Below, piece by piece: positions 4,414 to 21,219 of a DNA stretch of 24,652 nucleotides. The stretch covers positions 1 through 24,652 of IMG/VR virus record IMGVR_UViG_3300018049_000138. The stretch is one strand, 5' to 3'. Within the stretch, counting starts at the first letter, position 1; every line of letters begins with the position of its first letter. A model generated the notes under the pieces. It saw only the letters and a list, made by a program, of their open reading frames with translations. It was not told the origin of the DNA and searched no databases. Position numbers and translations under genes: made by a program. This stretch comes from a virus.

Positions 4414-4677
4414 CTACTCGTCAGCAGAAAGAACTTTTGACAGTTCGTCAAATCCGCCGACAAGATCTTCTATGTATTCTGGGTCATGTGGTGGTCCAAT
4501 CCAAGTAAGTTTTGTAATGATTGGATAAGTCTTCCATTTGAAGAGTTCCTTTTGCCACTCTCGATAATCCTTTGACCAATCCATCATTACCCAAGCGTAG
4601 TCAACGTCCTTTTCCATACATAGCGCCTGTGCTTTGAGGCAGTAGGGACAATCGGAGACTCCATAGATCATAAACAT
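4414..4677 (-). CDS. Glutaredoxin
   Basis: An 87-residue glutaredoxin with the dithiol active site CPYC at residues 10-13. The usual TVP cis-proline turn appears as TYPIIT, and a GGFDEL motif near residue 74 matches the family GG.DDL. Phage glutaredoxins commonly supply electrons to ribonucleotide reductase; no reductase gene is in this window, so the partner is unknown. The ATG overlaps the stop of the 40-residue gene upstream as TAATG and has GGAG seven bases before it. The family is clear from the CPYC motif and the length. Confidence 0.88.
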   Translation of the reverse strand: MFMIYGVSDCPYCLKAQALCMEKDVDYAWVMMDWSKDYREWQKELFKWKTYPIITKLTWIGPPHDPEYIEDLVGGFDELSKVLSADE

Positions 4678-4799
4678 TACCAGTCTCCGTCGTAATCACT
4701 CTCGTCGTCCCACTCCCAAGCGAGCCCCTCGTCAAAGGGGTTCTCGCACTCCATGCCCTCATGCATGGAAACGAATGCGGTGTGGTCGTAGTCAGTCAT
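4677..4799 (-). CDS. 40-residue acidic protein
   Basis: A 40-codon frame beginning MTDYDHTAFVSMHEGMECEN and ending in an extremely acidic tail (WEWDDESDYDGDW). It is supported by a strong ribosome site (AGGAGGACAG) before the ATG, by its place as first cistron after the promoter at 4832-4860, and by TAATG coupling to glutaredoxin. Its acidity suggests a protein that binds a basic partner or mimics DNA charge, but no function is known. Confidence 0.75.
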   Translation of the reverse strand: MTDYDHTAFVSMHEGMECENPFDEGLAWEWDDESDYDGDW

Positions 4800-4831
4800 C
4801 TGTCCTCCTGTGTTGTGTCAGTGACGTGTAT

Positions 4832-4860
4832 AATCTAACCGAGGGATCACCTGCTGTCAA
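4832..4860 (-). promoter_or_regulatory. Promoter with GATC in spacer (glutaredoxin operon)
   Basis: TTGACA at 4860-4855, a 17-bp spacer ending TCGGT, and TAGATT at 4837-4832. GATC at 4845-4848 is at the same offset as in the promoters at 1112 and 3662. The first start codon is 33 bases below the -10 box. Confidence 0.8.
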
Positions 4861-4882
4861 GCAGAGAAAGTTAACACCAAAC

Positions 4883-5881
4883 TCAACTTGGCAATCCAAA
4901 GTAATTATTCAATTCATAGTTGATTTCTTGTAGTGAAAGCGCCTGAACATACGCAACATTGTTAAAGTGAACTGAGAAGTCAATAGCCTTCATTGCCTCT
5001 TTAACGTCTTGTCTTGGGATATCAAAGTACATGGTAGTTGTCTTTGCTTCATATTCTTGGTTTGGATCTAAGTCTTCACACTTACCACACGAATGTCCAA
5101 AGACAATCATCTGAAAGTTAGCGCCTGTGATTTTGTCGGGACGCTTTTGCATAACTTTTTCGTAAACTTCCTTCTCGAATTTTATTGTCTGGTCATCGAC
5201 AACGTGATAAAGTTCTTCAGTTACCTTTCTGAATACCGCAACCTCTTTTTTCTTTGGCTGCATCTTAGAAACCAAACCGTGGTCTTTGACCTTAAACTTG
5301 GGACGCTTATGTTTTTCTCGCTTCCAAATCTGAAAGACCGTATTCAGAACATCCTTCTTTGATTCTTCTTCATCGTCTGATCTGTAAAAGCAGTTCTTTG
5401 GCAACTCAATGTCAGATACAAGATGAAAATTCTTGTTCAAACTGTTTTGGGTTGACCATTTTCTCCAAGACTTTGGGATCAAATAGCAAATGTATTCGCA
5501 ATGACCTGCTGCGTGCTCAAAGAACTTCTTTGCTAATGAACTTGCCCTACCGAACGGCGGGTTTGTTATTGAAACCAAATCAGTCCTATCAAATTGAGTT
5601 TCAAGATAGTCTGCCTTCTTCACAAGAGGATGCTTTGGCTCAATGTCATAAGATAAGATGTTCTTGTCTTCAATACCAATACGATGAAAGCCTTTGATAA
5701 ACTCTCCGGTTCCGCCGCAAGGCTCAAGAATAGTACGACCTGAAAGGTCGATGTACTTGCGAACCTCATCTAAGCAAAGATCAACAACCTCGGGGGTGGT
5801 GTAATATTGTTCCTTGCCAGTTGTTCTTGTGTTGGCATACGACTGCTTGTCTTTGTGCCCTGCTTTCACATTATTGGACAT
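4883..5881 (-). CDS. N6-adenine DNA methyltransferase (partner of putative nuclease)
   Basis: A 332-residue SAM-dependent amino-methyltransferase. Motif I is ILEPCGGTGEF at about residues 51-61 and catalytic motif IV is NPPFG at about 107-111. Order I then IV with (N/D)PPF is typical of gamma-type N6-adenine methylases. The C-terminal third carries a CGKC pair near residue 270 and may be the target-recognition part. The ATG overlaps the stop of the upstream gene as TGATG; a TTG one codon earlier is a possible alternative start. The upstream gene looks like a PD-(D/E)XK nuclease, so the two form a restriction-modification-like pair. Both are more AT-rich than their neighbours. The recognition site cannot be read from sequence. 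Confidence 0.85.
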   Translation of the reverse strand: MSNNVKAGHKDKQSYANTRTTGKEQYYTTPEVVDLCLDEVRKYIDLSGRTILEPCGGTGEFIKGFHRIGIEDKNILSYDIEPKHPLVKKADYLETQFDRTDLVSITNPPFGRASSLAKKFFEHAAGHCEYICYLIPKSWRKWSTQNSLNKNFHLVSDIELPKNCFYRSDDEEESKKDVLNTVFQIWKREKHKRPKFKVKDHGLVSKMQPKKKEVAVFRKVTEELYHVVDDQTIKFEKEVYEKVMQKRPDKITGANFQMIVFGHSCGKCEDLDPNQEYEAKTTTMYFDIPRQDVKEAMKAIDFSVHFNNVAYVQALSLQEINYELNNYFGLPS

Positions 5882-6435
5882 CAAATCAGATCTCCTTGCT
5901 GATCATTATGAATACATTCCCATTCAGAAAAATTATCTGTTCTAGTATTTTTAAGCAGCCGAACACCTCTGAGTTCATCGGTTCCAACGTGCTCAAGAAC
6001 TTTATTGGTTGAATGCATAGTTAAACACTCAGCGTCCCATTCTTTTCTAGTTTTCCTCCAAATTCTAATGTGGTTTGGATAGAATCCAACTAGTGCAACT
6101 TCATCCCAGCCTTTCTGCTTTGGTCGCAATTGATTGAACCAAAGTTGCTCTTTAAGAAAGCCACGCTTTGTATATTCAAGATCTGCCTTAGAAGCCTTGA
6201 CTTCCGATTTAATCCAACTATCTGATGAAGATTGCCTATACATGAGATCGCCTTGATCAGAAATTATAATAACTTCATAACCTAGACTTTCAAGGTATTT
6301 TTTGTACGCATTTGTGCCATGCGAACCTTTGGAATAATTATTATTCAAAAACCAGTTTTCATGTTTAGAGTCCGTCCATAATTCTGGTATTGTAGAGATG
6401 CTTGAATTTATCTCTTCTGTCATGTCAATGATCAT
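5881..6435 (-). CDS. Putative PD-(D/E)XK restriction-type endonuclease
   Basis: A 184-residue, AT-rich protein with a possible PD-(D/E)XK core: D63 in the segment SDQGDLMYR, then E78-V-K80 in KSEVKAS. It is followed by the segment WFNQLRPKQKGWDEVALVGF (100-118) and a strand with IRIWR, the layout of several type II restriction enzyme cores. It sits directly before the methylase gene with overlapping codons. The ATG has AAGGAG six bases upstream, and a promoter at 6516-6543 lies inside the preceding gene. Nuclease function is inferred from motif and context; it could also be a modification-dependent or inactive nuclease. Confidence 0.6.
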   Translation of the reverse strand: MIIDMTEEINSSISTIPELWTDSKHENWFLNNNYSKGSHGTNAYKKYLESLGYEVIIISDQGDLMYRQSSSDSWIKSEVKASKADLEYTKRGFLKEQLWFNQLRPKQKGWDEVALVGFYPNHIRIWRKTRKEWDAECLTMHSTNKVLEHVGTDELRGVRLLKNTRTDNFSEWECIHNDQQGDLI

Positions 6436-6438
6436 TGT

Positions 6439-6702
6439 TCACTCCTTTAGTCTTGTTTTGAGTATCTTGGCTCGGTGACGACCGCCCTGTAGGACGACCA
6501 CCACGTCACACTTAGAATATAACACGTTGCGTAGTGTTGTCAAGTCAGGATCGACCCATCCGTTCTCGGTCTGGAGCATCACACGACTCTGCCCTCGGTT
6601 TGCGAGACGGATCGCATCACGATAAGCGGCAGCCAACGACGAGTACACGCCGTGGAAGGTGTCGTCCCCGTCAAAGAGACAGTAGGTATAAATCTTGGTC
6701 AT
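6439..6702 (-). CDS. Protein of unknown function
   Basis: An 87-residue alpha/beta protein beginning MTKIYTYCLFDGDDTFHGVY, with a helix AAAYRDAIRLANRG and a strand CDVVVVLQGG before a basic C-terminus. The pattern (a strand, a short residue-by-residue helix, then a variable strand) recurs in small phage proteins of unknown function. It overlaps the upstream gene as ATGA. A promoter for the restriction-like pair is embedded in its codons at 6516-6543. No function can be assigned. Confidence 0.72.
   Translation of the reverse strand: MTKIYTYCLFDGDDTFHGVYSSLAAAYRDAIRLANRGQSRVMLQTENGWVDPDLTTLRNVLYSKCDVVVVLQGGRHRAKILKTRLKE
6516..6543 (-). promoter_or_regulatory. Internal promoter for the nuclease/methylase pair
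   Basis: TTGACA at 6543-6538, a 16-bp spacer, and TATATT at 6521-6516, inside the coding region at 6439-6702. It points at the nuclease gene that starts at 6435 and would let the pair be expressed independently of the long upstream operon. The boxes fit well, but being inside a gene it is less certain than the intergenic sites. Confidence 0.6.
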
Positions 6703-6929
6703 TTACCACACGCTTTACACCTCGATGCAAACTTCTTTCGCTTTTCTTTCATACCTATTTTTATTTTTTTAAAGTTCTCGACCCTATCCTTGACCACTTT
6801 GCCGTTGTGGAGTGCCTTGATGTGTGTGCCTGTGTAGGCACCGCAGAGAACGATTGCCTGCGAGGGCACATAGAAGATGTATTCGCCGGGGTGTGGCTTG
6901 TCTTCGTCTGTAATGTCGTAGAATTCCAT
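6699..6929 (-). CDS. Protein of unknown function
   Basis: A 76-residue protein beginning MEFYDITDEDKPHPGEYIFY. It has an N-terminal beta-rich segment with P-G-E-Y-I-F, a G-A-Y-T-G-T-H turn, and a very basic C-terminus (KKIKIGMKEKRKKFASRC) ending in CKACGK. The Cys pair could be half of a zinc site. The start overlaps the nucleotidyltransferase stop (TAATG) and the stop overlaps the next start (ATGA). The basic tail suggests contact with nucleic acid, without further evidence. Confidence 0.7.
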   Translation of the reverse strand: MEFYDITDEDKPHPGEYIFYVPSQAIVLCGAYTGTHIKALHNGKVVKDRVENFKKIKIGMKEKRKKFASRCKACGK

Positions 6930-7849
6930 TAATCGTCCAAGGTCATAGATTGGTCGTAGGCTTTGTACTTTAGTTTGGTTAGTGTGTCGAGGAGTTCGTT
7001 TCTTCTCAACAACTTGAAGGCAATGTTCTCGGGGCTGAATTCCATTTCCTCTGTTTCGAGCCCTGCTTGCCTCATAGAGCGGATTTTATTTTTGATCCTA
7101 TCAACGTGTCGCATAACTTTTTCAAACTCGCCAGAGTTGAACAGACGCTCCACAGAGGCTATTTGTTGCTCTATGTCGGAAGCCTTTTTCTTGGCTGTCT
7201 CCAAGTCAATAGAGCGATCAATCTGTTCGGGGTGCTGAACCCACTCGTCGTTCATTACGGAGTAGATTCCAGAAGAAGAATGTTCTTCGTCTATGTCCTC
7301 AACGTAGAGTTCTACATCATAGCCCTTGATCTTTATGTTGTGTAGTTCGTTCCAGCGTAGGCGCTTGGAATCAAACATTTCTTTTACAAGATCTTTGTTA
7401 TCGTCAATGTCTGTAAAGTCTACGACTATGTGTAGGTCTATGTCGGAATACTTTGACCAGTTGTAGTTTGCGAGAGAGCCTGTGAAGCGAACGTCTTTGA
7501 TCTCAACAGGGAACGGAAGGTTATCAACAAAGTCCTCTGCGATCTCCATTAGACGCTCTTTGATGTGTGGCTTGAGTTCGTCACCATTCCAAAGGCGTGG
7601 CTCTAACTGATCGTTCATTGGGAAGCCTTCGGGATCAACCTCAAGGACTTCTTCAAAGCGATACTTATCAGTTCCGAAAGAAACCTTGCCTTTGTAGGGG
7701 TCGCTCGCAATCTGGCTTTTAATGCCTTGCTTGCCGGTGTACATCTTGCCGTTACGCTTGCGTTGGTTTTTCAACTGACGCTGCGCTGCGTTACCCATAA
7801 TTTGTGATGGCTCTGGTCGCTTACGCTGGTCCACTTTCTTCTGGCTCAT
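6929..7849 (-). CDS. Nucleotidyltransferase-fold protein
   Basis: A 306-residue protein with a pol-beta-type nucleotidyltransferase core: G124-S125 in FTGSLANYNWSKYSDIDLHI followed by D136 and D138, with a likely third carboxylate in GYDVELYVED near residue 173. The first 60 residues are basic and low in structure. The last 100 (from SIDLETAKKKASDIEQQIAS) are helical and may form a coiled coil. Proteins of this type transfer a nucleotide to RNA, protein or small molecules; the substrate here is unknown. The start at 7849, with GAGG upstream, gives a 29-base overlap with the previous gene; no internal ATG has a better ribosome site. Confidence 0.8.
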   Translation of the reverse strand: MSQKKVDQRKRPEPSQIMGNAAQRQLKNQRKRNGKMYTGKQGIKSQIASDPYKGKVSFGTDKYRFEEVLEVDPEGFPMNDQLEPRLWNGDELKPHIKERLMEIAEDFVDNLPFPVEIKDVRFTGSLANYNWSKYSDIDLHIVVDFTDIDDNKDLVKEMFDSKRLRWNELHNIKIKGYDVELYVEDIDEEHSSSGIYSVMNDEWVQHPEQIDRSIDLETAKKKASDIEQQIASVERLFNSGEFEKVMRHVDRIKNKIRSMRQAGLETEEMEFSPENIAFKLLRRNELLDTLTKLKYKAYDQSMTLDD

Positions 7850-8438: not shown

Positions 8439-9179
8439 TTACTCCTTGAAAATTTCAGCCCAATCAATAGCCCAAGTGGGAACAATGATCACAAAGTTGT
8501 TTAGAATCTGGGTTCCTTCCTTTGTTCTTCCCACATCAAGAGCCATTACAATTCCGATTAGACTTCCCTTCTCGTCAAACACGCCAGATCCAGACGCGCC
8601 AGACCAAGCGTAAGATTGCAAGATTAAATAGTCAGGACCAGCCCCAGCAATAGTTCCTACCCATGTTGTCGGTCCCGTGCTATTAGGATAACCCGTGTAG
8701 TAAGCCTTGTCAAGGATGTTGAAACTCTTTCTTGGGTTTGCTAATGCTCTTGGGATCTTGACTGCTTTTCTTGTCGGCATTTCCTCAACCTCGATCACGG
8801 CATAGTCAACTTTTCTATCTATGTAAAGCAAATCAATACAATTGACCTGAGAATCCAAGTAAGAGATCTTGATTCCTACGCACTCACCGATAATTCCGTG
8901 GGCGGAGGTCAAGACATAGAAGCGATTGTTGTAGGTTATGTAGGTTCCGCTCAAGGCAGAGAGCGCGAACACCTCTCCACCAAGCGAGAACACCTGAACG
9001 ACCGATTCTGTTGATCTTGTAACGGCTTTCTTCTCATTGATTGTGTAGGAACTGGACATTCCTTCTGTTGTGTGAAAGCCTTTTGGCGAGACAGGAACAT
9101 AGAACAAATGTGCTGCAAGCATCGCCCCCGTAAAGATTCCAGCCAACATGACTTTGAAGGCGGTGCTTAGTGATTTCAT
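8439..9179 (-). CDS. Exported trypsin-like serine protease
   Basis: A 246-residue protein with a hydrophobic N-terminal segment (about residues 8-27), either a signal peptide or a membrane anchor, then a trypsin/HtrA-type protease fold. The triad is visible: H94 in LTSAHG, D125 in KVDYAVIE, and S196 in the oxyanion loop WSGASGSGVFD. No PDZ domain follows, so it is not a full DegP. It is expected to act in the periplasm or at the membrane. The ATG lies after a ribosome site (AGGAGAACAG), ten bases after the 972-residue gene stop. Possible roles include envelope remodelling, blocking other phages or processing virion proteins; none is shown by the sequence. Confidence 0.85.
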   Translation of the reverse strand: MKSLSTAFKVMLAGIFTGAMLAAHLFYVPVSPKGFHTTEGMSSSYTINEKKAVTRSTESVVQVFSLGGEVFALSALSGTYITYNNRFYVLTSAHGIIGECVGIKISYLDSQVNCIDLLYIDRKVDYAVIEVEEMPTRKAVKIPRALANPRKSFNILDKAYYTGYPNSTGPTTWVGTIAGAGPDYLILQSYAWSGASGSGVFDEKGSLIGIVMALDVGRTKEGTQILNNFVIIVPTWAIDWAEIFKE

Positions 9180-12468: not shown

Positions 12469-12812
12469 TTGAACCTCATTTGGATGTAGATAATTGTGGT
12501 CGCAAGTGCAACCGAAATCATGTTCTTCGGTGTGAAGAACTTTTCTCCCATGAAATACCAGAAAAGAACTGGCATTATAGCAAACGAGAGCGCAAAGATG
12601 TAGAATCTTGGAGCCCAGCCGCTCTGGAAGAATTCATAGGCATAGCGTAGCCCGTAAATGAAACATAGTGCTGACGGAATTGCTGTGCAAATCGCAATCC
12701 ATAGTGTGTGTTCTCTTGCCCAATCCCAGACGAACTGAGAATAAGAACTAAACCATGTGATGCCTTGTCCGAGAATGAAAAGGCAGGTTGCGATTGCGAG
12801 TTTGTCATACAT
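12465..12812 (-). CDS. Small integral membrane protein, about four segments
   Basis: A 115-residue, Trp- and Phe-rich hydrophobic protein with about four membrane segments: near residues 4-24, 38-58, 70-88 and 96-112. Charged residues are few and lie in the short loops (WDWAREH, GEKFFTPK). It overlaps both neighbours by a few bases. No holin signature or known family is recognised. A holin is possible on size and topology, but no endolysin gene is nearby, so this stays open. Confidence 0.72.
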   Translation of the reverse strand: MYDKLAIATCLFILGQGITWFSSYSQFVWDWAREHTLWIAICTAIPSALCFIYGLRYAYEFFQSGWAPRFYIFALSFAIMPVLFWYFMGEKFFTPKNMISVALATTIIYIQMRFK

Positions 12813-13545
12813 TGTGTAAGATTATTTCCTTAGCGTTTTGCTCGGTTGTTGTTCTGCCGTATTGATCAAGAAAAATTTTATCCCAATTTTTCATTTTACC
12901 TAAACGTGGATGATAGTTGTAAACAAAAATTGTTGGACTATGCACAAACTTTTTCAACATCTTTGTATGCTGAAAAGGTGACTCTTCAAGACCTACGACT
13001 TGCTCTGTACTTAGAACATCATAAAAGTAATTGCCACCACTAAACAAATTAAAATCAGAATTTGATAAGGTTTGATATTCTTCGTGTTGCTGTAAAAATA
13101 CGGAATGAAAATTGCCTATCTTAAAAGTCTTTAACTCGTTCAAAGATATTGGATTATAGTTTTTCGTATCGAGTTCGCCGTGTGTGATCATTCCAATTGA
13201 AGAACATCTATTTAGAAGATAAAACAATGCGCTTCTAACAAATGGATCCTTGTAAGAATACCAGTTTGTCTTTAAGATATCAAAAGTATTTTCGTTGACA
13301 ACAGGAAACATTTTGTCTGCTATCAGAGAAATTTTTTTTGAGTCTTTCATGGCGTAAGTCCAAAATTCATGGACCACAATACTCTTAGTACAACCAATAG
13401 CATATCTATCAGTTTCTGCAAGAGAGAACTCCAAAGCACCATCATAAAAAGGGTAAGTCTGGACGACGGAGCCTTTTGGAATCAATGTCTTTAGGGTTGA
13501 AAAACTATTAGTTTTGTTCTTCAGATTCTTGATTGGGCTTCGCAT
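12805..13545 (-). CDS. Degenerate D12-methylase-like protein
   Basis: A 246-residue AT-rich protein. It starts MRSPIKNLKNK, like the MRSPIKYPGGK opening of D12-class Dam methylases. It then shows YPFYDGALEFSLAE in the position of PFLGGGSLEL, and ALFYLLNRCSSIGMITHGEL in the position of AAAYFAINRSSFSGATLSGG of the intact Dam at 15973-16734. The catalytic DPPY is absent; the expected region reads YFYDVLS. This suggests a D12 fold that has lost catalysis or uses another activity. A TTG one codon earlier is an alternative start, but the ATG at 13545 is better placed after AAGGAA. The homology is by eye and modest. Confidence 0.6.
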   Translation of the reverse strand: MRSPIKNLKNKTNSFSTLKTLIPKGSVVQTYPFYDGALEFSLAETDRYAIGCTKSIVVHEFWTYAMKDSKKISLIADKMFPVVNENTFDILKTNWYSYKDPFVRSALFYLLNRCSSIGMITHGELDTKNYNPISLNELKTFKIGNFHSVFLQQHEEYQTLSNSDFNLFSGGNYFYDVLSTEQVVGLEESPFQHTKMLKKFVHSPTIFVYNYHPRLGKMKNWDKIFLDQYGRTTTEQNAKEIILHNV

Positions 13546-13885
13546 CAAACATTTCCTTGAACTTTGCTATTCTGTCCTCAAGCATTTCGATCTCTTCTGC
13601 TTCGCTTGGAGAATCTGGAACCTTTGGCTGTTCAGGTTGTGTCTTGAAGCGCACATAACCCTCAACGATATTCTGAATGTCGCCAAGCATTATGTCTATC
13701 TTGGCGAGTTTGCGACGCAGATCGTCTAACTTATCAAGGCCATCGGTTCCAAGTTTAAGAGTTGGTGTACCACCCACAGGTGCAAGAACATCGAGTTGCC
13801 TGATTGCATCACTAAATAGGCGGTTAACTTCATTAGGCAACTCATCGAGTTCAACAGAATACTGAATGTTTACTCTCTGTCCCAT
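13508..13885 (-). CDS. Helical protein of unknown function
   Basis: A 125-residue, mostly helical, acidic protein beginning MGQRVNIQYSVELDELPNEV. Residues 50-75 (LDDLRRKLAKIDIMLGDI) look like an amphipathic or coiled-coil helix, followed by a Pro-rich linker and a second charged helix (ETEMLEDR-like region EIEMLEDRIAKFKEMF). The pattern of a short strand then helices is common in phage chaperone or assembly helper proteins. The ATG has GAGG upstream. It overlaps the start of the next gene by about 38 bases. No family is recognised. Confidence 0.72.
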   Translation of the reverse strand: MGQRVNIQYSVELDELPNEVNRLFSDAIRQLDVLAPVGGTPTLKLGTDGLDKLDDLRRKLAKIDIMLGDIQNIVEGYVRFKTQPEQPKVPDSPSEAEEIEMLEDRIAKFKEMFDAKPNQESEEQN

Positions 13886-14177: not shown

Positions 14178-14397
14178 TCTCCACCTCCTTGTTGATTGGA
14201 TAAATGTCTCTCATTTTTACCGACCAGACCTTGCCTTTGTAGTAGACCATTCCCCATGTTGGTTCTTTGGGGTTTCGATCCCAAAACAATGCCTTGACTG
14301 GCTTGTCTGTCTTGACATACTCTTTTAGATATTCTTCTGCATCCTGAAGCAAGAAAGCATCTTGCGGGATGTGAACTAAGTCTCCTCTTATCATCAT
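14167..14397 (-). CDS. Small SH3-like GDLV protein
   Basis: A 76-residue protein beginning MMIRGDLVHIPQDAFLLQDA. It has the R-G-D-L-V turn of the window's SH3-like family, then an insertion with a helix (AEEYLKEYVK), and closes with strands WGMVYYKGKVWSV. A longer frame runs 16 codons further upstream but would lie inside groEL. The ATG at 14397 overlaps the groEL stop as ATGA, so coupling is likely. Function unknown; size and position beside groEL might suggest GroES, but no GroES mobile-loop or core pattern is present. Confidence 0.72.
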   Translation of the reverse strand: MMIRGDLVHIPQDAFLLQDAEEYLKEYVKTDKPVKALFWDRNPKEPTWGMVYYKGKVWSVKMRDIYPINKEVENAS

Positions 14398-15971
14398 GAT
14401 ACCTGAATAATCCCATAGTTGGTCGTGATAAGTGTGCCGGCGCACGACGCTGCGTTCTTCAGTGCCGACTTGGTTACTCTCACTGGATCTAAGATACCAC
14501 GCTCGTAGAGGTTTGTCAAGGTGCCGTTGCGGAAATCATAGCCCATGTCGTTTGACTGGTCTAGAACATGCGCCAGCAGGAGGTCTTCGCTCTTGCCGCC
14601 GTTTCTACACATTTGACGGAAGGGCGCTTCACATGCCTTCTTTACGATCGCAATACCAATTGCCTGCTCTTCGTGGTCAGTTGTAACGACAAGAGAGTTG
14701 CTTGCTCGTAGCAGGGCTGTGCCTCCACCACCGATTACGCCTTCTTCCTGTGCAGAGCGGACTGCTTCAAGGGCGTCCTCAATGCGGTGCTTGCGTTCGG
14801 TCATCTCTACCTGTGTTGCACCACCAACATGAATCACAGCAACACCTGAAGATAGGCGAACAATGCGACCCTGAATGCGCTCGCACTCTGCAAAGTCGTC
14901 TGTGTTTGCAATCTCAGCCTTTAGACTCTCAATACGAGTCTCAACTGCTTCGTAGTCACAGTTACCGCCGACAAGAATGGTGCCGACCTTGGTGCTCTCA
15001 ACAGACTTGGCCGTACCCAACTGATCAAGAGTTGCGGTCTGCAACTTCTGTCCTGACTCTCGGGTGATGAATGTTGCACCAGTCGAGATAGCAAGGTCAG
15101 ACAAAAGATTGCGGCGTTCCTCACCATAGAATGGAGCCTTGATTCCTGCAATCTTTAGAGAGCCACGCATAGCGTTCATAATCATAGCAGCAAGTGCCTG
15201 ACCCTCAATGTCTTCTGCAACAATGACGAGTGGGCGCGCTTCTCTTGCAACCAACTCAAGAATAGGAAGAATCTGCTCTACCTGTGTGATCTTGTAGTCT
15301 GTAACCATAACCAGCGGCTCTTCGTAGTGCATCACATTACGACGCTCGTCGTTGACAAATGCAGATGCACAGAAGCCAGCAGGGAAGCGGAAGCCCTCGG
15401 TCACGTCAATAGAAGTCTCCATAGAACGAGACTCTTCGATTGTGATAGAGCCGTCCTGACCTACCTTGTCCACAGCCATAGCAATGAGATCCCCAATAGT
15501 AGAATCGTTGTTGGCTGAAATAGTAGCGATGTGTTTGATGTCGTCAATGCTATTGACTGGTCGCGCCATCTCTGTAAGGTTGTTACAAATCTCTGATACT
15601 GTTGCATCTATTCCCCTCTGTAGTTCGATTGGAGAAACACCAGCAACAATGTGTCGCTGTGCTTCATTTAGGATTGCTCTCGCAAGGACGGTAGCAGTTG
15701 TTGTTCCGTCTCCAGCGCTTGTGTTTGTCTCGTTAGCAGCCTGACGGATAACCTGTGCGCCAGCGTTCTCAAACTCGTCGTCCAACTGAACGAACTGGGC
15801 TACTGTTACTCCGTCCTTTGTTGCGAAAGCAGACTTATCGTGCTCTTTTAGAAGAACCGTTCTGCCCTTTGGTCCGAGAGTAGAAGAAACATAATCAGCA
15901 AGTGTGTTTGCTCCGTTTAGAATCTTCTGTCGTAGTTCTTCGTTGTTTGCGAATACCATCTTGTTTGTCAT
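14394..15971 (-). CDS. groEL: Chaperonin GroEL
   Basis: A 525-residue GroEL/HSP60. ATP-site motifs are intact: TLGPKG at 31-36, KDGVT with Asp53, GDGTTT at 87-92, and the catalytic Asp in HRIEDALEAVRSAQ, followed by EEGVIGGGGTALLRA. The apical and intermediate domains are full length. The protein ends NYGIIQVS, without the flexible Gly-Gly-Met tail of E. coli GroEL (548 residues). No groES gene was found here, so host GroES or an unlinked phage cochaperonin would be needed, as for known phage GroELs. The ATG has GAGGTTAAA upstream, and a candidate promoter lies at 16098-16125 inside the dam gene. Likely role: folding phage structural proteins. Confidence 0.95.
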   Translation of the reverse strand: MTNKMVFANNEELRQKILNGANTLADYVSSTLGPKGRTVLLKEHDKSAFATKDGVTVAQFVQLDDEFENAGAQVIRQAANETNTSAGDGTTTATVLARAILNEAQRHIVAGVSPIELQRGIDATVSEICNNLTEMARPVNSIDDIKHIATISANNDSTIGDLIAMAVDKVGQDGSITIEESRSMETSIDVTEGFRFPAGFCASAFVNDERRNVMHYEEPLVMVTDYKITQVEQILPILELVAREARPLVIVAEDIEGQALAAMIMNAMRGSLKIAGIKAPFYGEERRNLLSDLAISTGATFITRESGQKLQTATLDQLGTAKSVESTKVGTILVGGNCDYEAVETRIESLKAEIANTDDFAECERIQGRIVRLSSGVAVIHVGGATQVEMTERKHRIEDALEAVRSAQEEGVIGGGGTALLRASNSLVVTTDHEEQAIGIAIVKKACEAPFRQMCRNGGKSEDLLLAHVLDQSNDMGYDFRNGTLTNLYERGILDPVRVTKSALKNAASCAGTLITTNYGIIQVS

Positions 15972-15972
15972 T

Positions 15973-16734
15973 TTAACCTCGTGAAATAATGAAAACTTCG
16001 TTTGACTTCTTGCTCTTGTTCATTCCGTAAGCCCACTCTGCCGGAATAATCTCATAGTCAGAGTAGTGTTCGCGAATAAACTCACAATCATTATAACATA
16101 ATAACCAGTTCTGGCGATTTGTCAAGAGGGAATGTAAAAGTTTATGATCAAATCCCTCGTGCATGTCTCCGTTCTTTCCATATAACTTGCTCTTCTCCTC
16201 CAAAAAGTAAGGAGGGTCAAGATAAAGGAAACAATTTTTGTGCTGCTCTATGGACTCCTCAAAGCCCAGAAAGCCTACTTTTAGGTTGGGTGCGTCAAAG
16301 TTAGCCAGCCTTTTGATGCTGTTCTCGTTGAAGCGTCCGTCGGCTGCTTGCTGGGAAAAACCACCTGATAGTGTTGCGCCAGAGAACGAAGAACGATTGA
16401 TCGCAAAGTAAGCGGCAGCAAGTTCTACGCTCTTGCCCTGCGTTGGATCGTAGCCTCGCAAGAGCATTCGTAAAGCCTTGAATGTTTCTTTGTCTAATGG
16501 ATGTAACTTCTTTACCTGCGCTACAAGATAATCTTTATCTGTCAGCAGACAATTCCAAAAGTTGTAGAGAGGATAGAACGCATCATAAGCATAGACGGCT
16601 CTATCTTTGGAGAGCACCAACTCTAACGACCCACCGCCCAAGAATGGGGAACAAATGTCCCCCTCTGGAATGTGGGGGAGTAGGTGCTTTATTGCGCGTG
16701 TTTTTCCACCGGGATAACGTAGTGGTGATTTCAA
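15973..16734 (-). CDS. D12-class adenine DNA methyltransferase (Dam-like)
   Basis: A 253-residue D12-class N6-adenine methylase. It begins MKSPLRYPGGK, has the SAM motif PFLGGGSLEL at 30-39, the helix segment AAAYFAINRSSFSGATLSGG at about 107-124, and catalytic DPPY at 173-176. The D12 class includes Dam (GATC) and several type II methylases, so GATC is likely but unproven. The start is TTG with a strong GGAGGAAAC site; no ATG fits. It follows a putative nuclease gene, and the two are possibly a restriction-modification-like pair. A promoter for groEL seems embedded in its 3' part (16098-16125). Confidence 0.9.
   Translation of the reverse strand: MKSPLRYPGGKTRAIKHLLPHIPEGDICSPFLGGGSLELVLSKDRAVYAYDAFYPLYNFWNCLLTDKDYLVAQVKKLHPLDKETFKALRMLLRGYDPTQGKSVELAAAYFAINRSSFSGATLSGGFSQQAADGRFNENSIKRLANFDAPNLKVGFLGFEESIEQHKNCFLYLDPPYFLEEKSKLYGKNGDMHEGFDHKLLHSLLTNRQNWLLCYNDCEFIREHYSDYEIIPAEWAYGMNKSKKSNEVFIISRG
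16098..16125 (-). promoter_or_regulatory. Candidate promoter for groEL inside dam
   Basis: TTGACA at 16125-16120 with a 16-bp spacer to TATTAT at 16103-16098; a TATAAT-like sequence lies a few bases further on (16096-16091). It is within the dam coding region, about 125 bases upstream of the groEL start. It fits the window's promoter family less well than the intergenic ones. Confidence 0.5.
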
Positions 16735-16758: not shown

Positions 16759-17751
16759 TTACCACGGATCGCCTGACAATTTCAATGAAGATGCGAGTTT
16801 TTGATCAGCGTATTTAAATCTAATTTTCATAATTTTGGTGCCGTTTACGCTTTTTATTCCAATGCTATTGGTACCAACTGGTACAATCTCGACATCTTCT
16901 CCCATCAATGATTTGTATTTTTCATTGTTGATCGGATCCATAATCATTGCACCATATGACTTTCCGGGCATACCGTAACCCGTTGATTGTACATAATACG
17001 GATATACTGTAGGAGATGCATCGAGCCAGTGAGTATACAAGTGTGCTCTTAACTCTGCCACCGGTAATTCCTTTAATCTTTCTAAGAGTATATCTCTAAG
17101 TTGATTTACTATTTGATCGGCGTGTTTTTCTGCTGCTATTCTGATGTCTTTGTTTTCAGGTGCTCTTAGAAACTTTTTTCTTGTTGCGGCAGTTTGGCTG
17201 AGTTTATTGGTAACAATAAAATTTTCGACACTTTTATTAATTTTGTCGATATTCAAACCTAATTCTTCAACAAGCCACCCAACACCATGATTTTTAAATC
17301 CAATTTTTTGTTTTGTTTTTGTTGACTTTGCAGATATACCAAGATATTCTGTGCCGTTTATTTCGTACAAAATGTCAGAGGGGTTTCCTAATTCGGCTGC
17401 GGGTACAGCAGAAACCAAAACATTTGGTCGAGCAGTCCACCATACCTTTGTTATTTCACCCTCAAAGCCATTTTCTTGCCGCCAATCTTCAATTTCTTCA
17501 AACATTTTAATTGCGCGCTGACTTTGTATTTCAAGTTCTGCTGATTTTTGTGCAGCAGTTAGTTGTGTTTTTCTCTGATTGATCGTTTGAAAAGCCTCTT
17601 CGTAGTTGATAAATTTTGATGTATCACCACCTAGAGAATCGGATGCTATAAGTGCCAATAGAATTTCATTTACGTCAGCCCCAAGTGTATTTCGAGATTC
17701 ACCCAAAACTCCCTCCATAATTTCAAGAATTGTTAACAAACTATCAGACAT
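16759..17751 (-). CDS. Putative PD-(D/E)XK-like endonuclease
   Basis: A 330-residue, distinctly AT-rich protein. VWWTARPN near 103-110, then NPSDILYEINGTEYLGISAK (about 123-142) and KIGFKNHGVGWL, match the layout of nuclease-like phage and restriction proteins with D-x13-x-x-K. The acidic residue before the catalytic Lys is replaced by Ser (D126, S140, K142). It starts NEILLALIASDSL-like, as do several type II enzymes. The ATG has GAGGTTAAGTT upstream, and the stop is 24 bases before the dam-like gene. Restriction function is inferred from motif and neighbour; it may be inactive or have another DNA role. Confidence 0.5.
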   Translation of the reverse strand: MSDSLLTILEIMEGVLGESRNTLGADVNEILLALIASDSLGGDTSKFINYEEAFQTINQRKTQLTAAQKSAELEIQSQRAIKMFEEIEDWRQENGFEGEITKVWWTARPNVLVSAVPAAELGNPSDILYEINGTEYLGISAKSTKTKQKIGFKNHGVGWLVEELGLNIDKINKSVENFIVTNKLSQTAATRKKFLRAPENKDIRIAAEKHADQIVNQLRDILLERLKELPVAELRAHLYTHWLDASPTVYPYYVQSTGYGMPGKSYGAMIMDPINNEKYKSLMGEDVEIVPVGTNSIGIKSVNGTKIMKIRFKYADQKLASSLKLSGDPW

Positions 17752-20196: not shown

Positions 20197-21219
20197 TCAC
20201 ACACTCCTATTCAGAATGTGTGTTCTGCTTTCGCCAAGACCTGCGGAGGTCTGACGAACAAACTTGGCTCTATGTTGTAGTTCATGGATAGAGCGACAAC
20301 CAGAGTAGGACAACCCAGAACGAATGCCTCGCTCAAGGTCTTCAAGAACGTTCTTTACCTTGCCTCGGTAGGGAACAGTAGCGGAGACACCTTCAAACGA
20401 AGAGTAGCGTCCTCTCCAATCCATTTGCGCCTCCTTGGACGCCATTCCTCGGTAGGTTTTAAATTTACGACCTGTTCCGTCTACAAGGGTTTCTCCGGGT
20501 GTCTCGCGCGTTCCAGATAGCAAGGAACCCAACATTACAGCGTCTGCGCCAGCAGCGAGAGCCTTTACAATGTCGCCAGAGTTGCGAATGCCTCCGTCGG
20601 CAATGATAGTAACGTCGCGGTCTGTGCGAGAACAATCAAAGATCGTCTGCAAGCCGGGGTGTCCGTGTCCTGTCTGGATTCTGGTAGAACAGATAGAGCC
20701 ACCACCAATGTTGCATCGAACGGAGTCTGCTCCCCAGTCTGCGAGGTCGTTTACGCCTTCGAGGGTTGCTACGTTGCCTGCCATGATGTGGATTTGGGAA
20801 CCCAATTCATAACGCAAATTTTTCAAGGCTTCTCGCATCTTGACGTGGTGGCCATGAGCAACGTCAACGCAAACAAATGTTGCGCCTGCCTTTACGCCCT
20901 CTTCAGCACGATCAAGGTAATCGTTATCAATGCCAACAGCGAATCCGATGTTGGCTACGCCGCTACTTTTGGCAGCACGAATCATTTCGGTTTGCTGCCC
21001 GATTGTGTTGTAGCGGTGTAGAACACCAGCACTGCTTGCATGGTGCATTGCTTCTGCCATCATTACCTCGGAAATAGTATCCATCGGTGAAGCAAAGATG
21101 GGTAGTCCGAGTTCTAGTCCGTTCCCCAGATTAGAAGAGATATCCACTTCAGATCGAGAGCGGATATCGGAGTATTGTGGTAAGAGTAAAACGTCGTCAT
21201 AGGTTAATGCTGTCTCCAT
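20197..21219 (-). CDS. IMP dehydrogenase/GMP reductase family enzyme, no CBS domains
   Basis: A 340-residue TIM-barrel enzyme. The catalytic Cys is C178 in NIGGGSICSTR; other motifs are PMDTISE, HRYNTI, IADGGIRNSGDIVKALAAGA and KTYRGMASKEA. It lacks the two CBS domains inserted in most IMP dehydrogenases. The mobile flap after GMAS is short, as in GMP reductase. By length and flap it could be a GMP reductase (GMP to IMP) rather than an IMP dehydrogenase. Sequence cannot settle this by eye. A PurA-family gene lies in the same direction near the window end. Its stop lies just before the RHH-like start. Confidence 0.83.
   Translation of the reverse strand: METALTYDDVLLLPQYSDIRSRSEVDISSNLGNGLELGLPIFASPMDTISEVMMAEAMHHASSAGVLHRYNTIGQQTEMIRAAKSSGVANIGFAVGIDNDYLDRAEEGVKAGATFVCVDVAHGHHVKMREALKNLRYELGSQIHIMAGNVATLEGVNDLADWGADSVRCNIGGGSICSTRIQTGHGHPGLQTIFDCSRTDRDVTIIADGGIRNSGDIVKALAAGADAVMLGSLLSGTRETPGETLVDGTGRKFKTYRGMASKEAQMDWRGRYSSFEGVSATVPYRGKVKNVLEDLERGIRSGLSYSGCRSIHELQHRAKFVRQTSAGLGESRTHILNRSV

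Follow-up and report, generated by a model that had tools for sequence, protein, structure and literature searches.

A nuclease-like gene that overlaps a DNA methylase gene in a phage raises the question of whether the two work as a restriction-modification (R-M) system and, if so, how self-damage is avoided when the nuclease is encoded first. We address this question for a pair found in a 24.7-kb viral metagenome fragment (24,652 nucleotides; hereafter, the window), in which nearly all genes lie on the minus strand and many are small. An earlier note, made from the letters of this DNA, had proposed a restriction module, and a nuclease gene and an N6-adenine methylase gene with an NPPF motif indeed overlap on the minus strand where it had placed them (Table 1). 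The two are also AT-rich, as it had claimed, with a GC content of 36.6% for the nuclease gene (second lowest of 38 CDS) and 40.1% for the methylase gene (fifth lowest), compared with 45.8% for the window. This signal alone is weak because other AT-rich genes sit in the window. Two such genes, at 12805-13548 (34.0% GC) and 16759-17751 (37.1% GC), are possibly recent arrivals like the cassette described here. We consider it likely that the pair constitutes a two-gene, type II-like R-M cassette of T4-like phages that would be usable against unmarked DNA. Support for the R-M reading comes from gene linkage, empty sites, exact replacement of the nuclease, conserved catalytic residues and a predicted PD-(D/E)XK fold.

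The type of phage is relevant to this proposal. Related contigs, including two of 191 kb, encode the T4-type major capsid protein gp23, and eight related phage records (among them a 191-kb record with a cassette-free site and a 191-kb record with a type B cassette, as defined below) yielded no tyrosine integrase. Because of these two features, the window most likely derives from a virulent T4-like myophage, with the lytic lifestyle indicated via the related records rather than directly. All contigs used are metagenomic, and two contigs of the phage type to which the window belongs recur as several of the listed loci.

Table 1. Features of the cassette, its flanks and other parts of the window.
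Feature	Position in window	Strand	Basis or remark
Whole cassette: nuclease, methylase, new promoter-like element and ribosome-binding site	4800..6438	minus	Absent from six related sites
Resident left-flank gene, 87 aa	6439..6702	minus	79-94% identity across related phages, cassette-bearing or not
Predicted extended -10 promoter of the resident locus, TTGACA-16-TATATT, within the 87-aa gene and ahead of the nuclease	6516..6543	minus	11/12 consensus matches, TG before -10
Ribosome-binding site AAGGAG, end of the 87-aa gene	6442..6447	minus	Sequence comparison
Type A nuclease gene, 184 aa, candidate restriction endonuclease	5881..6435	minus	ORF, phrog_6927, fold model
Codons of D63, E78 and K80 (predicted catalytic triad)	6196..6249	minus	Alignment and DSSP of model
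Gamma-class N6-adenine-type DNA methylase gene, 332 aa from ATG 5881	4883..5881	minus	PHROGs, PADLOC
NPPF catalytic motif (motif IV)	5552..5563	minus	Translation; invariant in alignment of methylases
Promoter-like TTGACA-17-TAGATT, cassette 3' end, ahead of downstream resident genes	4832..4860	minus	Promoter scan
Resident right-flank gene, acidic peptide	4677-4799	minus	Next to 87-aa gene in empty-site phages
Resident right-flank gene, glutaredoxin	4414-4677	minus	Pfam Glutaredoxin 7e-8
Five tRNA genes (Leu, Gln, Arg, Lys, Met)	30-787	minus	
GroEL/TCP-1-type chaperonin gene	14394-15971		Pfam 2e-64, phrog_5725 7e-141

The methylase gene begins at an ATG at position 5881 that is conserved in relatives (MSNNVKAGHK), and its reading frame extends to a TTG at 5884. 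Its overlap with the nuclease stop codon is 1 nt (TGATG) if the ATG is used and 4 nt with the TTG, and each of the two genes has a good ribosome-binding site ahead of it. In the protein, motif I (LEPCGGTGEF) precedes NPPF, and both GGTG and NPPF are conserved. The order of a GGTG motif I, NPPF and a long C-terminal part is characteristic of gamma-class N6-adenine methylases. The protein matches phrog_5172 (E=5.6e-33), phrog_799, annotated as 'DNA methyltransferase' (4.9e-17), and PADLOC MTase_II (4.3e-25). It is 83-86% identical to its counterparts in two related phages, L005 and L110. More distant phrog_5172 relatives (~30% identical) occur as orphans in phages of Escherichia, Salmonella and Pseudomonas, in whose records, as examined here, no adjacent nuclease was recognised. 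In the genome collection, the methylase was found once, within a Verrucomicrobiota MAG; the 8-kb contig that encodes it is collinear with the window and so is probably of phage origin, binned with the MAG.

The nuclease is less readily classified. Its family, phrog_6927, is annotated in PHROGs as 'unknown function', and the profile matches the proteins of the window (E=7.6e-7), L005 (3.6e-7), L110 (1.6e-7) and a fourth phage, L027 (3.6e-5). The residues D63, E78 and K80, which the earlier note had proposed for comparison with type II folds, are correctly numbered and are invariant across 30 aligned relatives. The structure check that it had suggested, made here with AlphaFold2 and DSSP, places them as in PD-(D/E)XK enzymes: in the model (mean pLDDT 75; ten-residue blocks mostly 71-97 for residues 11-140, low at 141-169), D63 opens the second strand (63-67), and E78 and K80, the ExK motif, lie in the third (75-88). 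Foldseek searches of BFVD with this model returned viral relatives (up to 2e-6) and, lower down, proteins named as PD(D/E)XK endonucleases and a cyanophage resolvase. Against the PDB there was no match under E=1e-3. The leading nuclease matches there, SPARDA, PvuII (0.13) and Hjc (0.19), all have the PD-(D/E)XK fold, and none is significant alone. Thus, the model and alignment support a PD-(D/E)XK fold with conserved catalytic residues, for which the PDB matches are only suggestive. Among profile libraries, PADLOC REase_II matches relatives of the nuclease (3e-10, 2e-6 and 1.2e-4) and not the window's protein itself, and Pfam and NCBIfam gave no usable match. Only noise came from sequence searches of the PDB, whether the query was the nuclease, one of its relatives or its profile, and a close relative was absent from both the phage collection (tblastn) and the genome collection.

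No helicase domain was matched in the 184-aa protein and the neighbouring genes do not encode R-M subunits, which sets the pair apart from type I and type III restriction systems. Phage P1, which is temperate, carries EcoP1I, a complete type III R-M system (Mod/Res, with a helicase-nuclease). The window's pair would resemble it in that a phage genome encodes the whole R-M system, and differs in its small nuclease without a recognised helicase domain. The bacterial type II systems, such as PvuII, are a closer likeness. They too consist of separate, linked genes for a small PD-(D/E)XK nuclease and a DNA methylase, and the resemblance extends to the MTase_II and REase_II matches and to the presence of PvuII among the structural matches. 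Unlike them, the window's nuclease has no significant sequence match to any solved restriction enzyme, and the cassette sits behind a resident phage promoter.

The structural matches could also be read differently. An orphan anti-restriction methylase and an unrelated recombination nuclease, for example a Holliday-junction resolvase, might be neighbours by chance. The structural matches include Hjc-type resolvases, one relative of the nuclease has a weak resolvase match in PHROG, and orphan methylases of the wider family exist, as do unpaired nucleases. Apart from that PHROG match, the likeness to resolvases is at the fold level only (Hjc, E=0.19, probability 0.90; P60 resolvase, E=0.01). Furthermore, a gene that is nuclease-like, in the case of type B by signature or position only, lies directly upstream of the methylase in all eight distinct phages in which this methylase type was found, and linkage in 8/8 loci with three nuclease types would not arise by chance. 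Type A is found in the window and L027, type C in L005 and L110, and type B in L021, L022, L028 and L029. The loci fall into two unrelated neighbourhoods, that of the window, L005 and L110 versus a DNA polymerase and/or dUTPase region (L021, L022, L027, L028 and L029). Type B proteins share a signature resembling GGQG..PD...E-x-K. They have no library match, their predicted model is too poor for use, and profile comparison detected no homology between them and the type A and C nucleases.

A scan for phrog_6927 nucleases extends this pattern to another methylase class. The counts that follow describe the best 80 of 101 confirmed stretches, of which 79 could be assessed. The nuclease overlaps a beta-class methylase (DLPYG motif; Pfam N6_N4_Mtase 5e-30) in 49/79 of these loci, always with the nuclease first and in 48 of the 49 by the same 7 nt, which is also difficult to reconcile with chance neighbours. 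A beta-class methylase lies further downstream in 2/79 and is absent in 28/79. Counted as distinct sequences (n=62), 37 are linked and 24 unlinked. These pairs, from marine and partly cyanophage-like viruses, share with the window a related nuclease, its leading position and the gene overlap, and they differ in methylase class and in a nuclease only about 20-30% identical to the window's. The earlier note had called the nuclease-first arrangement unusual. On the contrary, it is the rule here, because it recurs in 8/8 methylase loci and in 49/79 related nuclease loci. The unpaired phrog_6927 nucleases are the main caveat to the R-M reading, because the 28 loci without an adjacent beta-class methylase indicate that the family can exist unpaired. 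In these loci (including L033, L049, L060, L101 and L108), the catalytic residues are kept where aligned, and in one of them, L073, another methylase-like protein comes next.

The third line of evidence on linkage is the insertion site. Further phages of the same neighbourhood were found by a search with the conserved 87-aa gene, and six of them (L113, L114, L116, L117, L118 and L119) have an empty site, where this gene is followed directly by the acidic-peptide and glutaredoxin genes. Alignment of the joined flanks places the cassette after the stop codon of the 87-aa gene and before the start of the acidic-peptide gene. No copy of the methylase or nuclease was found elsewhere in the six empty-site records, which include records of 191 and 155 kb. 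The absence of both genes from empty sites shows that the pair enters or leaves as one unit. Taken together, the 8/8 and 49/79 counts (the latter from the best 80 of 101) and this joint absence indicate a linkage beyond chance, which makes a fortuitous pairing unlikely.

At the same site, one further phage (L120) carries a different pair, a 271-aa protein and a gamma-class methylase only 26% identical to the window's. Thus, at the window's locus, close relatives may have a pair with a type A or a type C nuclease, a different pair, or no pair at all. The 271-aa protein (L120, 5269-6084) has no library match and belongs to no known family. It is a candidate new nuclease type, called nuclease-like from signature or position only. 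This allelic series bears on whether the nuclease might be a homing endonuclease of the free-standing kind, which would cut empty sites and so spread the cassette. The precise insertion, the empty sites and the mobility between phages would suit such an enzyme. However, different nucleases and even a different pair occupy the same spot, and a methylase is always present, which a homing enzyme does not need because insertion destroys its site. On balance, we regard homing as unlikely.

The nuclease has been replaced within the cassette. Between the window and L005, the methylases are 86% identical and the nucleases 27.5%, while most neighbouring genes share 68-93% identity, with 46% for one fast gene. 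L005 and L110, at a similar overall distance, have nucleases that are 75% identical. DNA similarity between the window and L005 ends at 5881 and resumes at 6438, which is exactly the nuclease gene. The gap between methylase and nuclease identity indicates that the nuclease was replaced and is not merely fast-evolving. Indeed, the nearest relative of the window's nuclease is that of L027 (44%), whose methylase is only 67% identical, whereas the nearest methylase is that of L005. These comparisons show the nuclease half exchanged and the methylase half kept, an argument that rests on identities and DNA breakpoints because the methylase tree is too poorly resolved for fine groupings. A variable methylase segment (about residues 213-243), which would be expected to follow nuclease type if it determined specificity, is long with type A and short with type C. 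Its tracking of nuclease type is not decisive because both forms occur with type B.

The strong divergence of the nuclease between phages might suggest that it is decayed or inactive, and that only the methylase matters, as protection against host restriction. This we judge to be very unlikely, given that the catalytic residues are invariant, that type C nucleases appear to be under purifying selection (dN/dS 0.09-0.14, or 0.06-0.14 for type C nuclease and methylase together, with dS near saturation), and that the replacements are other intact nucleases, not remnants.

The earlier note had also proposed that a promoter inside the preceding gene could express the pair separately. A consensus match alone is no evidence for this promoter, because the scan found 9 sites versus 6.2 expected. 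Its existence is nevertheless supported by codon conservation. All 10 close relatives, cassette-less ones among them, share the same five codons for the -35 and -10 elements, while surrounding synonymous sites vary, and only 2/54 other invariant-residue codons are identical (nine of these genomes; hypergeometric P = 4e-6). The element is absent from more distant relatives. It was not made for the pair, however, because its presence in cassette-less relatives indicates that it is resident and predates the cassette; in those relatives it would serve the downstream genes. Similarly, the AAGGAG site at the end of the 87-aa gene stands ahead of the nuclease here and ahead of the acidic-peptide gene in empty-site phages. 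The cassettes in turn bring a promoter-like element at their 3' end, which has similar counterparts in L005 and L110, a weaker one in L120 and none in empty sites, together with a ribosome-binding site that empty sites also lack. These would presumably restore expression of the displaced downstream genes. We infer that both predicted promoters work.

With these features, operation of the pair as an R-M cassette can be envisioned as follows. Sequence comparison shows the cassette inserted precisely behind a resident promoter and ribosome-binding site, which thereby stand in position to drive the nuclease and, coupled to it, the methylase. The methylase would place N6-methyladenine at its target sites in phage DNA, and progeny genomes would thereby be protected when they leave in virions. 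In the next infection, the nuclease could be made first without harm, as both the incoming DNA and its hemimethylated daughters would be resistant, and it could cut unmarked DNA in the cell, be it the host chromosome or rival phages. The nuclease-first order would be tolerable because the phage genome arrives methylated and new DNA is hemimethylated. An R-M plasmid, in contrast, enters a naive cell, whereas a phage genome can arrive already protected. Most likely, then, virion DNA arrives already methylated, which would answer the question of self-damage that the earlier note had raised.

The main target could be either the host chromosome or rival phages. Perhaps the same enzymes mainly destroy host DNA to feed phage replication, with competition between phages being secondary. 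The restriction enzymes of chloroviruses are held to degrade host chromatin early and not to be responsible for mutual exclusion (PMC7019647). The window also encodes a dCMP-type deaminase and glutaredoxin, which would fit nucleotide recycling. Against a mainly host-directed role, presence/absence and nuclease swapping at one site suggest a diversifying accessory function, and no copy was found elsewhere in two large records, of 191 and 155 kb, that lack the cassette. Such a role is possible, if doubtful. Nuclease exchange and presence/absence polymorphism would be more readily expected from competition among related phages than from a fixed part in host-DNA breakdown, and the allele pattern at this one site leans toward rival phages as the target. 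We also offer the tentative idea that the conserved methylase might serve as a general shield while phages swap cutter families, which would give sister phages mutually incompatible weapons, with virion-inherited methylation permitting nuclease-first operons.

Virus-borne type II R-M is already known. In chloroviruses (PBCV-1, NY-2A), restriction enzyme genes and companion methylase genes are always adjacent, and some viral methylases are orphan (PMC7019647). The likeness to the window lies in this adjacency of virus-encoded genes. Chloroviruses are, however, eukaryotic algal viruses with packaged restriction enzymes, and the cassette of T4-like phages differs further in its unrelated locus, its precise insertion site and the swapped nucleases beside one conserved methylase. 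A literature search, confined to open-licence papers, found the chlorovirus precedent and no paper on the present cassette. A survey of gut phages found phage methylases to be mostly orphan (PMC10477858). The gamma-class adenine methylases (phrog_5172) of rV5-like, phAPEC8-like and Felix O1-like phages belong to the wider family of the window's enzyme and differ from it as orphans, with no nuclease recognised next to them in the records examined. A phage methylase is commonly interpreted as an orphan gene that counters restriction, whereas here nucleases from families of unknown function pair systematically with phage methylases. The exact insertion site, together with cassette-free and cassette-swapped relatives, makes restriction by virulent phages against each other or the host genome testable. 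The findings also bear on how a methylase keeps protecting the genome after the swap to an unlike nuclease, and hence on how the two specificities stay matched.

Several other genes in the window merit mention. A second DNA methyltransferase gene (15973-16734; phrog_56, 9e-49) adjoins the chaperonin gene. A nucleotidyltransferase-fold protein (6929-7849; NTP_transf_2 9e-5; phrog_36119 9e-44) is kept in related phages, and a secreted or membrane-anchored protein with the look of a trypsin-like serine protease (8439-9179; TSAHG and GASGSG motifs) is kept in L005. Finally, a dehydrogenase-like gene is located at 20197-21219 (phrog_9582, 8e-99).
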